Of a stretch of 51,511 nt of DNA, positions 4,612-44,027 are shown piece after piece (the stretch's first letter is position 1; each line of letters starts with the position of its first letter). Made by a program: the position numbers and the translations under genes. Origin of the DNA: Prevotellaceae bacterium (GTDB lineage: Bacteria; Bacteroidota; Bacteroidia; Bacteroidales; Paludibacteraceae). The stretch is taken from NCBI GenBank assembly GCA_031261165.1, contig JAISJU010000109.1:1-51511 (forward strand), written 5' to 3'. Below the pieces are notes generated by a model, which saw only the letters and a program-made list of their open reading frames with translations, did no database searches and had not been told where the DNA came from.

Positions 4612-5024
4612 TTTACTTCAAATTCTTTGGTTAATTCGATTACTTTTTGGTTTATTTCTACCAATTCCCGCGTTGCATTTTCCAATTTATAGAGAAATGC
4701 TAACGCTTTTTTTTCGGTAAAAGCGGATTTGATTGCTTTTACAACTTGGTTGTAATTTACACCGACAGCACGAAATTGTGCGTGCAAATTGGTCAATCTC
4801 GAATAATATTCCATTGCTGCCATATCGTATTTTACAACCTTTAATGCTTTCTCGAAAATACAAGCAGCGATAAACTGCGACTTGATTTTCACTCCCGACT
4901 GTTCAAAGCGCGATAAAAACTCGGCGTTTTCCTGTGCCGTAAAATTGACTGAATACCGAAAAACGGCGGGGTCGGCTTTGGGTTTTCGTCCACCTTTCAT
5001 TTGTTTTTTTGTTTCTGTTGCCAT
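4596..5024 (-). CDS. mobA: Mobilisation accessory protein MobA
   Basis: A 142-aa basic protein. The N-terminus MATETKKQMKGGRKPK leads into a short ribbon-helix-helix-like region, followed by helices with a conserved LRAVGVNYNQ-type motif (here FRAVGVNYNQVVKA). This is the oriT-binding accessory protein of Bacteroides elements and helps the relaxase recognise its nick region. The ATG at 5024 was chosen because homologues begin at this methionine. The frame is open further upstream, but that part runs through the repeat-rich intergenic region. It is the first gene of mobABC. Confidence 0.88.
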   Translation of the reverse strand: MATETKKQMKGGRKPKADPAVFRYSVNFTAQENAEFLSRFEQSGVKIKSQFIAACIFEKALKVVKYDMAAMEYYSRLTNLHAQFRAVGVNYNQVVKAIKSAFTEKKALAFLYKLENATRELVEINQKVIELTKEFEVKWLQK

Positions 5025-5147
5025 ATTATTGGATTTTAGTGGTAAAAATGTTGCAAGTCCAAATGCTGCAAGCCGATAAAAAACCATTGTATTTTCGGAA
5101 ATGCACGACTTCGGAGTGCGTTTCTTCCCCCCGCCCAATGCGAGGGG

Positions 5148-5374: not shown

Positions 5375-5382
5375 CAAAGTTA
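5375..5382 (-). promoter_or_regulatory. Likely -7 box of the mobABC promoter
   Basis: On the minus strand this reads TAACTTTG, matching the Bacteroidota -7 consensus TAnnTTTG. It points toward mobA about 350 nt away and would put the candidate oriT in the transcript leader. No clear TTG is seen at the -33 position. Confidence 0.45.
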
Positions 5383-5400
5383 GAGGGCTGTTTTCGGAAA

Positions 5401-5475
5401 GTTGACAGGTTGGGGGTGGCAAACCCCTGTCACACTCGGTGCAAACCCCTGCCACTTGTTAAAAGACAGGCAAAT
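5401..5475. repeat. Paired 18-bp repeats with dyad symmetry in the mob-tra intergenic region
   Basis: GGTGGCAAACCCCTGTCAC (5415-5433) and GGTGCAAACCCCTGCCAC (5438-5455) are near-identical direct repeats. Each has partial internal symmetry, and the GACAGG motif recurs on both sides. This looks like a binding site for a regulator or relaxosome component. The rest of the gap up to 5848 is AT-rich and I see no gene in it; the only longer frame there, on the minus strand, has no protein-like composition. Confidence 0.45.
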
Positions 5476-5848
5476 ACACGGACTTTTATATATTCCTTTG
5501 CAGTCGGATTGTTTGTATGTAGGTAAATCGGTATGAAGATTTATCGGTACTGATAATCCGACATTAATTTTTAAGAAAAAACGCATATTCAAATCAATGT
5601 ATAAAGGATTGTAGCAATGGACATACAAAGAATTGAACGGACAAATATAAATCGGAATGAATATTGGATTTTGCAAACCAACATTCTGAAAAACATTGGA
5701 ACATTGGAATGTCAGAATATTGAAACAGCAAATCATTTATTCGTATAATCTATTGAATATCAGAATAAACATAAAGATATAAAAACAAATGAAGGAACAA
5801 TTAACGGTTTAATCAACCCATTGTATAATTAAATAAATAAAAGTTCAA

Positions 5849-20766: not shown

Positions 20767-21996
20767 CTATGAACGGATTGTTAATTTCGTTTCCATACCT
20801 TTTACCTTATCGGCAAAAAGAGCCATATCGTTACTGATTTTTTCATTGGTAATTTTGGCATAAATCTGTGTTGTCTGAATGTTCGTGTGTCCGAGCATTT
20901 TTGAAACACTTTCTATTGAAACGCCTTTTGATAAAGTCAGCGTTGCAAAAGTGTGGCGCGACAAATGAAATGTAAGTTTCTTTTTCAGCCCACATATTTC
21001 ACCTATTTCTTTCAAATAAACATTCGACTTTTGATTGGTGGTTACAGGCAAAGAACGCTCATCAGGTAACGCGCTATTATATTTTTCCAAAATCGCTTTC
21101 GGAATGTCAAGTAGAGGAACATTGTAGCCGACATCTGTTTTGCGGCGTTTGCCCATAATCCAAAGTCCGCCGTCAAAAGAAGTTTTAATGTTGTCCGCTG
21201 TAAGGCGTTTTACATCTATATAAGACAGTCCTGTAAAACAGCAAAATACAAAAACATCTCTTGCGCGTTCCAATTTTGTGGCTGTAAATTTCTGTTTCAT
21301 TAGGATTTCAATCTCATCTTGCGTCAAATAGCCCCTGTCGGACTTTTTAAGGTGTATTTTGTAGCCGGAAAACGGATTATCGCAAATCCATCTATATTTA
21401 ATGGCTATGCCGACAATATGCTTGAACATTTGCATATATTTGGCAATTGTATTTTCTTCGCTGTGCCGTTCGGTCAGCAGGTAAGTTTCAAAATCGCATA
21501 CGAATTTGTGATTGATTTCTTTGAGCGGAATGTCCGAAAGGCGATGCCAATCCTTAATGTAGGCGGCAAGATGGTCGCGGGTAATGCGATACTTGTTGTA
21601 GGTAGATTTGGCAATGCTGATGCCGACTAACAATTTCTTTTCGCGGTTATGCTCGTCAAACAGTTCCAGCAGGTTTTGGCGTTTGCTGTCAATGCCGAGA
21701 AAAACGTTTTTAATTTTTTCGGCTGATACGCTGTTGTCTTTTTCCTGCAAATCGCGATAAACTTTGATTATCGCCGATTTTGTATTGTCAAGCAAGGCGT
21801 TGATTTCCGTTGCCTCGCTTGTTCTGCCGATTGCTTTTCCGACTTTCACGTCCCAAAACTTGGGATTGATGTCTTTTTTCATTCCAAAACGCGCCTCTTT
21901 ACCATCAACCGTAATACGGCAGAAAAGCGGAACGTTACCATTTGCTTTTTCTTTGTCCCTTTTCAGAAAGAAAAGGACTTTAAATGTACTTCTCAT
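20767..21996 (-). CDS. int: Tyrosine integrase, IntDOT-like
   Basis: A 409-aa recombinase that should catalyse integration and excision of the ICE. An arm-binding domain (residues 1-90), a SAM-like core-binding domain (about 110-205) and a catalytic domain are seen. Catalytic residues visible: K286 region, H344, R347 (HLSRHTF), H370 (LGH) and Y379 (QIYAK). The position of the first catalytic Arg (usually GLR) holds Ser258 in GLSYID, as is known for IntDOT of CTnDOT. The length matches IntDOT closely. It lies at the right end of the element with its promoter facing inward. Confidence 0.93.
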   Translation of the reverse strand: MRSTFKVLFFLKRDKEKANGNVPLFCRITVDGKEARFGMKKDINPKFWDVKVGKAIGRTSEATEINALLDNTKSAIIKVYRDLQEKDNSVSAEKIKNVFLGIDSKRQNLLELFDEHNREKKLLVGISIAKSTYNKYRITRDHLAAYIKDWHRLSDIPLKEINHKFVCDFETYLLTERHSEENTIAKYMQMFKHIVGIAIKYRWICDNPFSGYKIHLKKSDRGYLTQDEIEILMKQKFTATKLERARDVFVFCCFTGLSYIDVKRLTADNIKTSFDGGLWIMGKRRKTDVGYNVPLLDIPKAILEKYNSALPDERSLPVTTNQKSNVYLKEIGEICGLKKKLTFHLSRHTFATLTLSKGVSIESVSKMLGHTNIQTTQIYAKITNEKISNDMALFADKVKGMETKLTIRS

Positions 21997-22457: not shown

Positions 22458-23444
22458 ATGAAAAAGATTTTTTTAAGCATTGGATTGCTGCTCACAGTGA
22501 GTATGGCAACCGTAGTATTTAACTCTTGCGGCGATGACAAGAAAGACGAGCCGAAGAAAGAAACGCCCACAGACCCGTCTGACCCGAGCGACCCCACTGA
22601 CCCAACAGACACTGTGCCTGTTATTCCTATTGACACCGTGCCGCAAACCATTGCCGTAACAGGCATTTCGCTTGACAGCACTTCGCTAACGCTTGTCATC
22701 GGCGAAGACTACACCCTTACCGCAACTGTATTGCCGGACAATGCAACAGACAAAACCGTAGATTGGCAAACAAGCGATGCCACCAAAGCCACCATATCTA
22801 ACGGCAAAGTAATAGCCATAGCCGCAGGCATTGCCATTATTACTGCCAAAGCAGGCGACAAAACCGCTACCTGTACAATAACGGTAAAAGAACAGCCGGT
22901 TGTTATTCCTGCAGACGGCGTGTTAATCAATGGCGTAGTTTGGGCAAAATATAATGTAGATGCCCCCGGTACTTTTGCCGCCATTCCCGAAAACGCAGGC
23001 AAATTCTATCAATGGAACAGCACCACCGCTTGGGCTGCTACCGGCACTGTAAGTGGTTGGAATAGCAGTTGGAACGGCGGTTTTGCCACTCCAAGCAGCA
23101 GCGACACTTGGCAAGCAACGAACAATGTATGCCCCACAGGCTACCGTTTGCCCACAGGCGCAGAACTGCAAAGCCTGTTAGGTGCCGGTAGCGTTTGGAC
23201 TACCGTGAATGGCATAGAGGGTCGTGTTTTTGGTAGCGGTAGCAACAGCCTTTTCCTGCCTGCCGCAGGCTACCGCTACTACACCGGTGGTACACTCCGC
23301 GACGCAGGCTCGGCCGGCTTCTATTGGAATAGCGAGGCGTACAATGCAGGCAACGCGTACTACTTGGGCTTCGGCAGTGGTGACGCGCGCAGGTACAGCG
23401 ACTACCGCGCGACCGGCTTTAGCGTGCGTTGTGTCGCAGAATAA
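22458..23444 (+). CDS. Lipoprotein with Ig-like (BIG2) and FISUMP/C-type-lectin-like domain
   Basis: A 328-aa surface lipoprotein. The lipobox is near FNSCGDD (Cys at about residue 24), then a Pro/Asp/Thr-rich spacer. A BIG2-type domain (about 66-143) has AVTGISLDSTSLTLVIGE and TCTITVKE. The C-terminal domain from about residue 150 contains CPTGYRLPTGAELQSLL, LPAAGYRYYTGG and a terminal GFSVRCVAE, the FISUMP pattern related to formylglycine-enzyme/lectin folds. The function is probably ligand binding at the cell surface. The last 45 codons look like a variable region (separate entry). Confidence 0.8.
   Translation: MKKIFLSIGLLLTVSMATVVFNSCGDDKKDEPKKETPTDPSDPSDPTDPTDTVPVIPIDTVPQTIAVTGISLDSTSLTLVIGEDYTLTATVLPDNATDKTVDWQTSDATKATISNGKVIAIAAGIAIITAKAGDKTATCTITVKEQPVVIPADGVLINGVVWAKYNVDAPGTFAAIPENAGKFYQWNSTTAWAATGTVSGWNSSWNGGFATPSSSDTWQATNNVCPTGYRLPTGAELQSLLGAGSVWTTVNGIEGRVFGSGSNSLFLPAAGYRYYTGGTLRDAGSAGFYWNSEAYNAGNAYYLGFGSGDARRYSDYRATGFSVRCVAE
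23311..23444 (+). other. Possible DGR-type variable region at the gene 3' end
   Basis: The end of the lipoprotein gene reads GFYWNSEAYN ... DARRYSDYRATGFSVRC. Targets of diversity-generating retroelements in Bacteroidota end in a very similar way, with runs of AAC-derived codons before a constant GFSVRC. Several codons here (TAC, AGC, GAC, TAC, ACC, GGC) are what adenine mutagenesis of AAC would give. No reverse transcriptase or template repeat was found in the window, so this is an inference. Confidence 0.4.
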
Positions 23445-23466
23445 TTCGATTTATTCTGTATTTTTA

Positions 23467-23497
23467 TTCGACTATTAGCCCCTCGCAAGGGGTCGAA
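23467..23497 (+). terminator. Hairpin after the lipoprotein gene
   Basis: CCCCT-CGCA-AGGGG (23479-23492) is flanked by TTCGA and TCGAA, then AATTTTTAT. It may be a terminator. A hairpin at this place is also usual just after DGR variable regions. Confidence 0.5.
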
Positions 23498-23534: not shown

Positions 23535-24230
23535 ATGGCAACAAAAGAAAACAAACAAACCGTTCCCGCCACAAGTTCTGACAAAGAACTGCGGGCAATG
23601 CAAAACACGCAGGCGGAAGAGATGCAGCAAATTATCGCCGAAGTGGAAGATGCGCTGAAAAAATTCGGCGTGTACGAAAATACTTATTCGCCTGACGAGC
23701 GTATGCGCCTGGTGAGCGTGGGTATAAAGAATTTCGGTTTTTTGCAGACGGCTTATGACAGCGCACAGATGAATCCCGCGCTTGTGCCTTCGTTTCTGGA
23801 TATGGGTATGTATGCCTGGACTATTGACGACTACCGGCGCAAAAGGGCGTTGTTTGACCTCTTGCAGAATTTTATGCGCATAGCGCAGGATTCGATGATA
23901 GCGAGCGGAGATGAGGCGTATCATTATTCGCTGATGTATTACAACTATGTGCGCGAGGCTGCCCGTCAGAAAGTGGCGGTAGCGGAGGGGGTATATAATC
24001 AATTGTCCCCTTATTTCAAGAAAAGCAAAAGCAAAAAAGGCAATGAAGAGCCTACGCAGGCACAGGTGGAACGCGATGTACGCGCACTGCTGCACGGCAC
24101 AAAAGACGGTAAGATTGTGATAGAAAACGAAACGCCTGCCGCACTCGCGGGCAAGCATAAGGTGCTCGACGAGATACAAACGGGACACGTTGAAGGGAAA
24201 ATTACTTCCGAATTTGCGGAAAAAGAATGA
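23535..24230 (+). CDS. Hypothetical helical protein
   Basis: A 231-aa protein without a signal peptide. It is almost wholly alpha-helical by composition, with a basic stretch near residue 160 (KKSKSKKG) and an acidic tail. I do not recognise the family. It follows the lipoprotein gene by 90 nt on the same strand and ends directly before a tandem repeat array. Confidence 0.65.
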   Translation: MATKENKQTVPATSSDKELRAMQNTQAEEMQQIIAEVEDALKKFGVYENTYSPDERMRLVSVGIKNFGFLQTAYDSAQMNPALVPSFLDMGMYAWTIDDYRRKRALFDLLQNFMRIAQDSMIASGDEAYHYSLMYYNYVREAARQKVAVAEGVYNQLSPYFKKSKSKKGNEEPTQAQVERDVRALLHGTKDGKIVIENETPAALAGKHKVLDEIQTGHVEGKITSEFAEKE

Positions 24231-24388
24231 AAATGATGGCTTCGTAAGCGAAAATTTTGGCTTGCGAAGCCATAATTATGACTTCGCGAGTCATAATTAT
24301 GACCTGAGGGGGTCATAATTTTGGCTTGCGAAGTCATAATTTTGGCTCGCGAAGTCATAATTATGACCTGAGGGGGTCATAATTTTGA
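24231..24388. repeat. Tandem array of 21-22 bp palindromic repeats
   Basis: About seven diverged copies of a unit built from TCATAATTATGAC (itself nearly palindromic) and a second inverted core such as CTTCGCGAAG or CCTGAGGGGG. The units alternate between TAATTATGAC and TAATTTTGGC forms. They are contiguous with no spacers, so this is not a CRISPR array. It starts at the stop codon of the preceding gene and ends 70 nt before the CYTH gene. Confidence 0.8.
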
Positions 24389-24454
24389 TGCAAAATGCCT
24401 TTGTTTGCATTGATAGATTGCTTACTTTTGTTTTTTCATTTATTTTTTTTGGCA

Positions 24455-42906: not shown

Positions 42907-44027
42907 TTCTGATATATTATCTTTAATTCTTTCAACATAGAACTCGCAGAATAATTCTTCTCGTAATATTCTTTTTGACTATTTTTCATTTCTTCTAAGT
43001 CTGTATTAAACAACAATTGCTCTATTTTATTGGTTAAATCACTTTTATCCTGATTTTTAAATACAAGGGCTGTTTCGCCATTTTTCACATTATCTAAAAA
43101 GTAGGAAATATCGGAAACAATAAGCGGAACGCCAAATTTATAAGCCAATGTTAATACGCCCGATTGTGTTGCCGACAAATAAGGATAAATAACACAACTC
43201 GCATTACAATACAATAATTTTACTTCACTATCTTTTATAAAACGATTTATGTGCAACAGTTTTTTTTCGTTGTTTTTTCTCTTAAAAGGCAAATCGCCTT
43301 TACCTGCTATCACTAAAGAATAATTATCAAACAATATTTTATTTTCCAAAAACGCATTATACAGCAATTCTATACCTTTATACAGATGCACTGTTCCAAA
43401 AAACAAGATGTATTTTCCTATGTCTTTCATTTCCTTACAAATGTCATTTCCGAAAACAATATTGGCAGTAATTAATGACGGAAATTGATGAAAATAAACC
43501 GGTTTTTCGGGATATTTTTCTTTTAATTGCCGAAATTGGCTTTTACTGCAAGTTACTAAAATATTTGCATTGCAAATATTTTTTTTTACACCCCACAAAA
43601 TATATTTCTCAAACAATATTTCCTTTAATTTTTTATGTATTGTTTCGTGGGCTTCCAAATCGTGTACGGTATATACAATTTTGGTTGTTTTTTTTAACTT
43701 AGGAATAATTCGATTTAAGGTATAATCGCCTGTTAGAAAATGAATATAATTTATTTGATGCTCTTTGACAATGGTTTTTATTCTGCATAATAATTTATAA
43801 TTATAAAATTTGTTTATTACTTTTCTTATTAAATTATCAGACGAATTAAGATATTTGATACGATAATTATTATTTTCCATATAGTCTGCATAATTTATTT
43901 CTTTACTTGAAACAACTATTGCATAAACTGATAAATCAGCAGACTGAAAAGCCGTATTTATAATATTAGCACCAAACGGTGTCATACCGGAAGATGATTC
44001 GGAACAAATGTATAAGATATTTTTCAT
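42903..44027 (-). CDS. Glycosyltransferase (GT4-like)
   Basis: A 374-aa protein. The N-terminal half contains IVYTVHDLEAHETIHKKL. The C-terminal half has ILFFGTVHLYKGIELLYNAF, LVIAGKGDLPF and the TQSGVLTLAYKFGVPLIVSD motif of GT4 enzymes. Lysine, asparagine and tyrosine are frequent because the region is AT-rich. Part of the minus-strand polysaccharide block after the FkbM gene. Confidence 0.82.
   Translation of the reverse strand: MKNILYICSESSSGMTPFGANIINTAFQSADLSVYAIVVSSKEINYADYMENNNYRIKYLNSSDNLIRKVINKFYNYKLLCRIKTIVKEHQINYIHFLTGDYTLNRIIPKLKKTTKIVYTVHDLEAHETIHKKLKEILFEKYILWGVKKNICNANILVTCSKSQFRQLKEKYPEKPVYFHQFPSLITANIVFGNDICKEMKDIGKYILFFGTVHLYKGIELLYNAFLENKILFDNYSLVIAGKGDLPFKRKNNEKKLLHINRFIKDSEVKLLYCNASCVIYPYLSATQSGVLTLAYKFGVPLIVSDISYFLDNVKNGETALVFKNQDKSDLTNKIEQLLFNTDLEEMKNSQKEYYEKNYSASSMLKELKIIYQK

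Follow-up and report, generated by a model that had tools for sequence, protein, structure and literature searches.

A lipoprotein gene ending in a very probable variable region of a remote diversity-generating retroelement in a Bacteroidales genome

Diversity-generating retroelements (DGRs) with targets remote from their cassette are already known. The TvpA-type DGR of Treponema denticola has remote lipoprotein targets (PMC4891356), in cyanobacteria remote variable region (VR) genes have been assigned to one cassette on the basis of a similarity to its template above 50% (PMC7517822), and the authors of a large metagenomic survey of DGRs stated that remote targets would escape their approach (PMC8144416). 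What is notable in the present case is the combination of an orphan cassette with many scattered lipoproteins. No description of an orphan cassette with so many scattered targets that share a hairpin at the stop codon was found in the open-access literature, a body of work outside which most subscription journals and preprints fall. The genome analyzed here (G000) and that of a relative (G399) show how much such surveys can miss, as the dispersed signature proteins of a single orphan cassette range in number from about 17 to more than 19.

The gene under consideration lies in the window, i.e., the whole analyzed stretch of 51,511 nucleotides, and comprises or adjoins the following features:

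22458–23444, forward strand: target gene, a lipoprotein of 328 residues with signal peptide, Big_2 domain and C-terminal FISUMP domain
22653–22877, forward strand: bacterial Ig-like domain Big_2, residues 66–140 (domain match, E 8.9e-12)
22926–23444, forward strand: FISUMP (Fib_succ_major) domain, from domain matches, found in about 27 other places of the genome too
23247–23444, forward strand: VR, homologous to the template on contig C16, with adenine-biased differences
23437–23458, forward strand: inverted repeat CAGAATAA/TTATTCTG with a 6-nt loop, over the stop codon, proposed as recognition hairpin or cruciform
about 23467–23495, forward strand: second stem-loop (TTCGA..CCCC/GGGG..TCGAA) followed by a T-rich run, similar in paralogues on C194 and C93

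The FISUMP (PF09603, TIGR02145) and Lcl_C profiles matched about residues 175–326 with E values from 6e-9 to 5e-5 and scores slightly under the curated cut-offs. An export signal with a lipobox is predicted from the sequence FNSC at residues 21–24 of the signal peptide (VVFNSC, then GDDKKDE, an acidic stretch after the cysteine), and the lipoprotein is presumably displayed on the surface. The sole part of the protein matched in a PDB sequence search was the Ig-like domain. The VR occupies the 3′ end of a FISUMP/Lcl_C-family gene; the AlphaFold prediction of the FISUMP domain with five relatives, in which a C-type-lectin-like fold was sought, reached a pLDDT of only 37 and was set aside. A tyrosine recombinase gene (window 20767–21996, reverse strand) is divergent from the lipoprotein gene, and no convincing promoter-inversion repeats were found in the 460-bp intergenic region between them. 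Short repeats of the TCATAATTATGAC / GGCTTGCGAAG type occur at window positions 24230–24390, downstream of a 231-residue ORF.

The first-pass annotation had noted that no reverse transcriptase (RT) lies in the window and had proposed looking for a DGR RT elsewhere in the genome, and was borne out on both counts. The RVT_1 profile had no match in the window and marked three RT places in G000, the genome to which the window belongs (225 contigs, 3.65% estimated contamination); an intact DGR RT, together with a template, was found on contig C16:

C16:3486–3953: Avd-like gene (DivGenRetAVD E 3e-9, bAvd E 2e-9)
C16:4339–4539: template repeat, non-coding and Asn-rich, between the Avd-like gene and the RT, about 100 bp upstream of the latter
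C16:4648–5877: DGR reverse transcriptase, 409 residues, RVT_1 match in an intact open frame with motifs LPIGNLTSQ and YVDD

The best solved relative of this RT is 8ub7 (E 2e-28), which we take to be the DGR RT of the Bordetella phage. Among phages, its nearest relatives are an unannotated faecal phage record and the Bacteroides phages F2, F4 and Bacuni_F1 (38–40% identical to the last three), and Bacteroides uniformis phages of such kind have been published as DGR carriers (PMC8143477). More than half of the 24 relatives of the RT in named genomes adjoin a local pair of template and VR whose mismatches fall almost only at adenines (24 at adenines and none elsewhere in L111, 32 and one at a T in L104, 30 and one at a T in L121). 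The C16 RT belongs, by its sequence, to the DGR clade. The Avd-like gene scored below the curated cut-offs (38.5 vs. 40 for bAvd, 37 vs. 80 for DivGenRetAVD) and was counted as an Avd component; its homologue in a second relative, G101, passes the bAvd cut-off (49.6 vs. 40). The template reads TLFLPAAGNRNYNTSALNNAGSNGNYWSSTVNSTNSYNLNFNSSNVNPGNNNNRANGFSVRCVAE and ends in NNNNRANGFSVRCVAE, and neither DNA nor protein searches of the genome revealed a VR or target gene beside the cassette. Given an assembly of 225 contigs with the contamination stated above, a foreign origin of C16 is conceivable. A 155-residue ORF (L024 3017–3484, on C16) with no Pfam or NCBIfam match, possibly a new accessory protein, lies upstream of the Avd-like gene, and a similar-looking ORF occupies the same place in G101 (L101 93–674). 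Contig C120 (L003) carries what is left of an RT gene, truncated and interrupted by two in-frame stops.

The first-pass annotation had placed the feature at 23311–23497, at the end of a lipoprotein ORF finishing in DARRYSDYRATGFSVRCVAE. The ending is as it described and a VR does lie there, but the VR is longer, starting near 23247 (SLFLPAAG) and ending at the stop codon at 23444. An alignment of 193 bases, with gaps, gives 66% identity between the window VR and the C16 template, of which the VR is by sequence a diverged homologue. Changes affected 30 of 55 template adenines and 35 of 137 other bases (OR 3.5, p = 1.5e-4), and the bias was stronger when codon positions 1–2 only were considered (OR 4.9, p 4e-5), these site-wise p-values taking sites as independent and being uncorrected across paralogues. 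The earlier suggestion that several codons fit adenine-only changes of AAC holds beyond chance, as C is the third base of 17 of the 18 codons that align with template Asn, vs. 87 of the 157 NNY codons in the remainder of the gene (p = 4e-4). A near-identical template of 100–130 bp, which had also been anticipated, did not emerge: the sole template in the assembly is the C16 one, with 35 non-adenine differences. Of the substitutions, 30 of 65 (46%) fall at template adenines, a share reckoned against the only template found, when the cognate one may be missing from the assembly; it lies below the 75–80% or more, with near-identity elsewhere, that is required of a DGR target.

Contig C186 (L039) carries a second, phage-type DGR, in which a 79-bp template (5564–5642) and two neighbouring ORFs with VRs (4984–5062 and 5379–5457) directly precede an intact RT (phrog_1423); the template differs from the two VRs at 14 and 16 positions, all adenines. 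The window gene might be thought to belong to this system, yet the C186 template (TGCTCCTTCGGGTTTCGT...) has no match to the window VR and its targets belong to a different protein family (phrog_11581), so that the probability of the window gene being a target of this system is negligible.

Beyond the window, a protein search located the FISUMP domain at 27 other places of the genome, all in open frames, in addition to the template and a contig-edge fragment. Twenty VRs, the window one among them, were aligned by codon on the C16 template, and in 17 of them the adenines of the template at codon positions 1–2 were changed in excess, with individual, uncorrected p-values from 4e-9 to 0.023. Three others, on C21, C137 and C6, showed little or no adenine excess (p 0.05–0.19). 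Pooled, the 17 signature VRs were changed at 469 of 938 adenine sites vs. 687 of 2314 other sites (p 2e-27), and the three controls at 87 of 164 vs. 201 of 406 (OR 1.2, p 0.25); as the split was made after the individual results had been seen, the pooled figures describe the groups and constitute no independent test. The tails on C21 and C137 also end in SVRCVAE, and the GFSVRC ending, which the first-pass annotation had read as a DGR cue, is, when taken alone, a general property of the domain: because control genes share it, it is the nucleotide pattern, rather than the motif, that is diagnostic.

The strongest evidence is independent of any template and comes from eight paralogues ending in SVRAVAE (one in SIRAVAK). 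Their 17 hypervariable codons have mean entropies of 1.46 bits at position 1, 1.21 at position 2 and 0.18 at position 3, and the third base is C in 126 cases, T in six and G in one (n = 133). Codon identity at identical residues is 0.88 inside the VR vs. 0.67 upstream, and residue identity is 0.67 inside vs. 0.74 upstream. The fixed third base and the codon agreement point to a VR backbone copied repeatedly from a common template with AAC codons, and not to selection on the protein sequence; a template for these eight paralogues is missing from the assembly. Diversifying selection of the ordinary kind, acting on a lectin-like surface domain with no retroelement involved, would agree with the FISUMP domains on C21, C137 and C6, which have the same kind of ending and no clear adenine bias. 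It is nevertheless highly improbable, given that in the signature set third bases are nearly invariant exactly where residues vary most, that synonymous sites are better conserved inside the VR than outside, the opposite of what protein-level selection would produce, and that the genome holds a template and a DGR RT. The third bases of the window VR agree with those of the SVRAVAE set at 16 of the 17 hypervariable codons and at 31 of 48 other codons. Adenine bias, C-ending codons and third-base agreement together indicate that the window VR was marked by adenine mutagenesis from a template other than that on C16, and we regard it as very probable that the lipoprotein tail is a DGR-type VR remote from its cassette.

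The hairpin that had been reported after the stop codon is real, and two were found. The first, CAGAATAA-TTCGAT-TTATTCTG, spans the stop codon with perfect 8-bp arms (DNA fold z −3.8), and the second is probably a transcription terminator. Allowing at most one mismatch, the core of the inverted repeat, GAATAATTCGATTTATT, occurs at 13 places in 3 Mb, every one of them a VR end, and the reversed control pattern occurs at none. Perfect 8-bp arms were found in five VRs (on C166, C92, C13, C194 and C2), most others having G-U-type or shorter stems. The C16 template shares the 3′ end GTCGCAGAA with the VR and carries no inverted repeat, reading GCAGAACTTAA there instead, so that the hairpin at the VR 3′ end is a difference between the two. 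We infer that the inverted repeat is a recognition element of the DGR. An inverted-repeat-like stretch with two mismatches at window positions 43703–43719 was dismissed as a chance occurrence, being within a glycosyltransferase-like gene of the opposite strand.

Cleaner cases were found in two relatives, presumably of termite-gut origin judging from their isolate names. In G399 (Culturomica sp. MAG, Hm464_bin165), whose RT is 51% identical to that of C16, the cassette (L102 1748–3101) has no neighbouring VR, and its template has 34 further matches over the genome. Nineteen remote FISUMP-type VRs were examined (L202–L220), which gives at least 19 remote targets of one orphan cassette. Two of them differ from the template at 21 and 28 of 49 adenines and at none of the 132 other bases; the others carry 4 to 23 non-adenine changes, with adenine bias in every one. 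Gene conversion or recombination among FISUMP paralogues, shuffling tails with no mutagenic copying, would account for a VR backbone that in some paralogues is better conserved than the upstream domain, but it cannot yield new bases limited to positions 1–2 of NNC codons over 17 columns, nor adenine-only differences from a non-coding template such as those of the two cleanest G399 targets, and we consider it very unlikely. In G101 (Cus372_bin26), with an RT 64% identical to that of C16, the template locus (L101 1301–2050) consists of three tandem 250-bp units, the second and third of which differ from the first at 24 of 59 and 25 of 61 adenines and at 11 of 137 and 9 of 138 other bases, as if they were mutagenized copies inserted into the template locus itself.

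The non-adenine divergence of the 19 G399 targets from their template ranges from 0 to 17%, indicating that the targets of one template extend from fresh to drifted, and the window VR, at 25% from the C16 template, lies beyond the drifted end. The first-pass annotation had reasoned that the tail must be either diversified from a distance or a relic, a framing that holds with the RT and template on C16 and a VR that differs preferentially at adenines. Whole-genome DNA searches detected no template in the assembly matching the window VR at non-adenine sites, and no cognate template was found in 100 relatives or 358 family genomes. A pattern for template-type 3′ ends matched exactly on C16 only, other matches being chance-like (control: 3). 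The two best matches in relative genomes were rejected as templates, L099 being an ordinary coding VR and L100 lying inside a FISUMP gene. The viral contigs searched contained no relative, and the plasmids searched gave no match. Contigs C89, C2, C131 and C43 break at FISUMP paralogues or within 150 bp of them, which makes unassembled template copies plausible, and we lean towards the existence of a cognate template that went unseen.

That the window VR was written earlier by this DGR lineage, whose template has since been lost or changed so that diversification ended, is a real, if somewhat doubtful, possibility; it is a refinement of the same DGR origin, and its probability overlaps with that of the main explanation. 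It would fit the divergence above that of any G399 target, an assembly with no matching template, and the leftover targets without cassettes described in T. denticola (PMC4891356). The gene has, however, kept C-ending codons opposite template Asn in 17 of 18 cases, where its own NNY codons would lead one to expect 55%; its inverted repeat is perfect and its 3′ end conserved; and the template of the eight sister VRs with a common backbone is missing as well, in an assembly with contig breaks near the paralogues.

In the mechanism we propose for a remotely diversified target, RNA would be made from the template repeat C16:4339–4539, and the RT and the Avd-like protein would copy it, placing random bases opposite template adenines. 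The mutagenized cDNA would then replace the VRs of dispersed FISUMP genes, the 3′ end of the window gene among these, in what would be retrohoming in trans, with recognition through the common 3′ end together with the inverted repeat that spans the stop codon; the template locus would be spared because it has no inverted repeat. The products would be surface lipoproteins with lectin-like ends and about 21 randomized positions, presumably varying what the cell binds. More broadly, and only tentatively, in Bacteroidales of the termite-gut type a single orphan cassette (Avd, template and RT, with no resident target) and several evolving template families may rewrite more than a dozen scattered lipoprotein genes in trans, all with a common AT-rich inverted repeat at the stop codon, the templates being renewed by mutagenized copies in the template locus as in G101. 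Since one template has both clean and drifted targets within a single genome, the choice of targets, their ageing and the turnover of templates would become directly measurable.

Among described systems, that of T. denticola is similar in being a chromosomal DGR whose lipoprotein targets bear lectin-like VRs at the C-terminus; several of these targets lie far from the cassette, templates of more than one type occur, and there are leftover targets. Its core cassette has a resident target, whereas that on C16 has none and its targets are Bacteroidales FISUMP proteins. Cyanobacteria share the dispersed paralogous VR genes, and the window gene, at 66%, falls within the definition of a remote variable protein proposed for them (a CLec-type gene off the cassette whose VR shares 50% identity or more with the template or with the VR of the cassette; PMC7517822). 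Their targets are, however, mostly cytosolic regulatory CLec proteins, 76 remote ones over 21 genomes (PMC7517822), in contrast to a lipoprotein-type target here, with about 17 signature genes in one genome and no fewer than 19 in that of a relative. Thiohalocapsa PB-PSB1 also has incomplete loci and candidate remote targets for which diversification in trans was inferred, but its nine DGR loci and 15 targets are tied to defence NTPases, unlike one orphan cassette with dispersed lipoproteins (PMC10907252). The DGR of Legionella pneumophila, according to a work cited in PMC8144416, has a surface-displayed lipoprotein as target, which in that species lies in cis, adjoining the cassette (PMC10907252). 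Finally, the Bordetella phage BPP-1 shares the RT and Avd homologues and has, at the 3′ end of its VR, a hairpin or cruciform whose stem is likewise 8 bp long (PMC3240598); hairpins of the BPP-1 type are GC-rich, with a 4-nt GRNA loop, and lie 4–34 bp after the VR (PMC3240598), whereas those described here have an AT-rich stem and a 6-nt loop (TTCGAT) and contain the stop codon.
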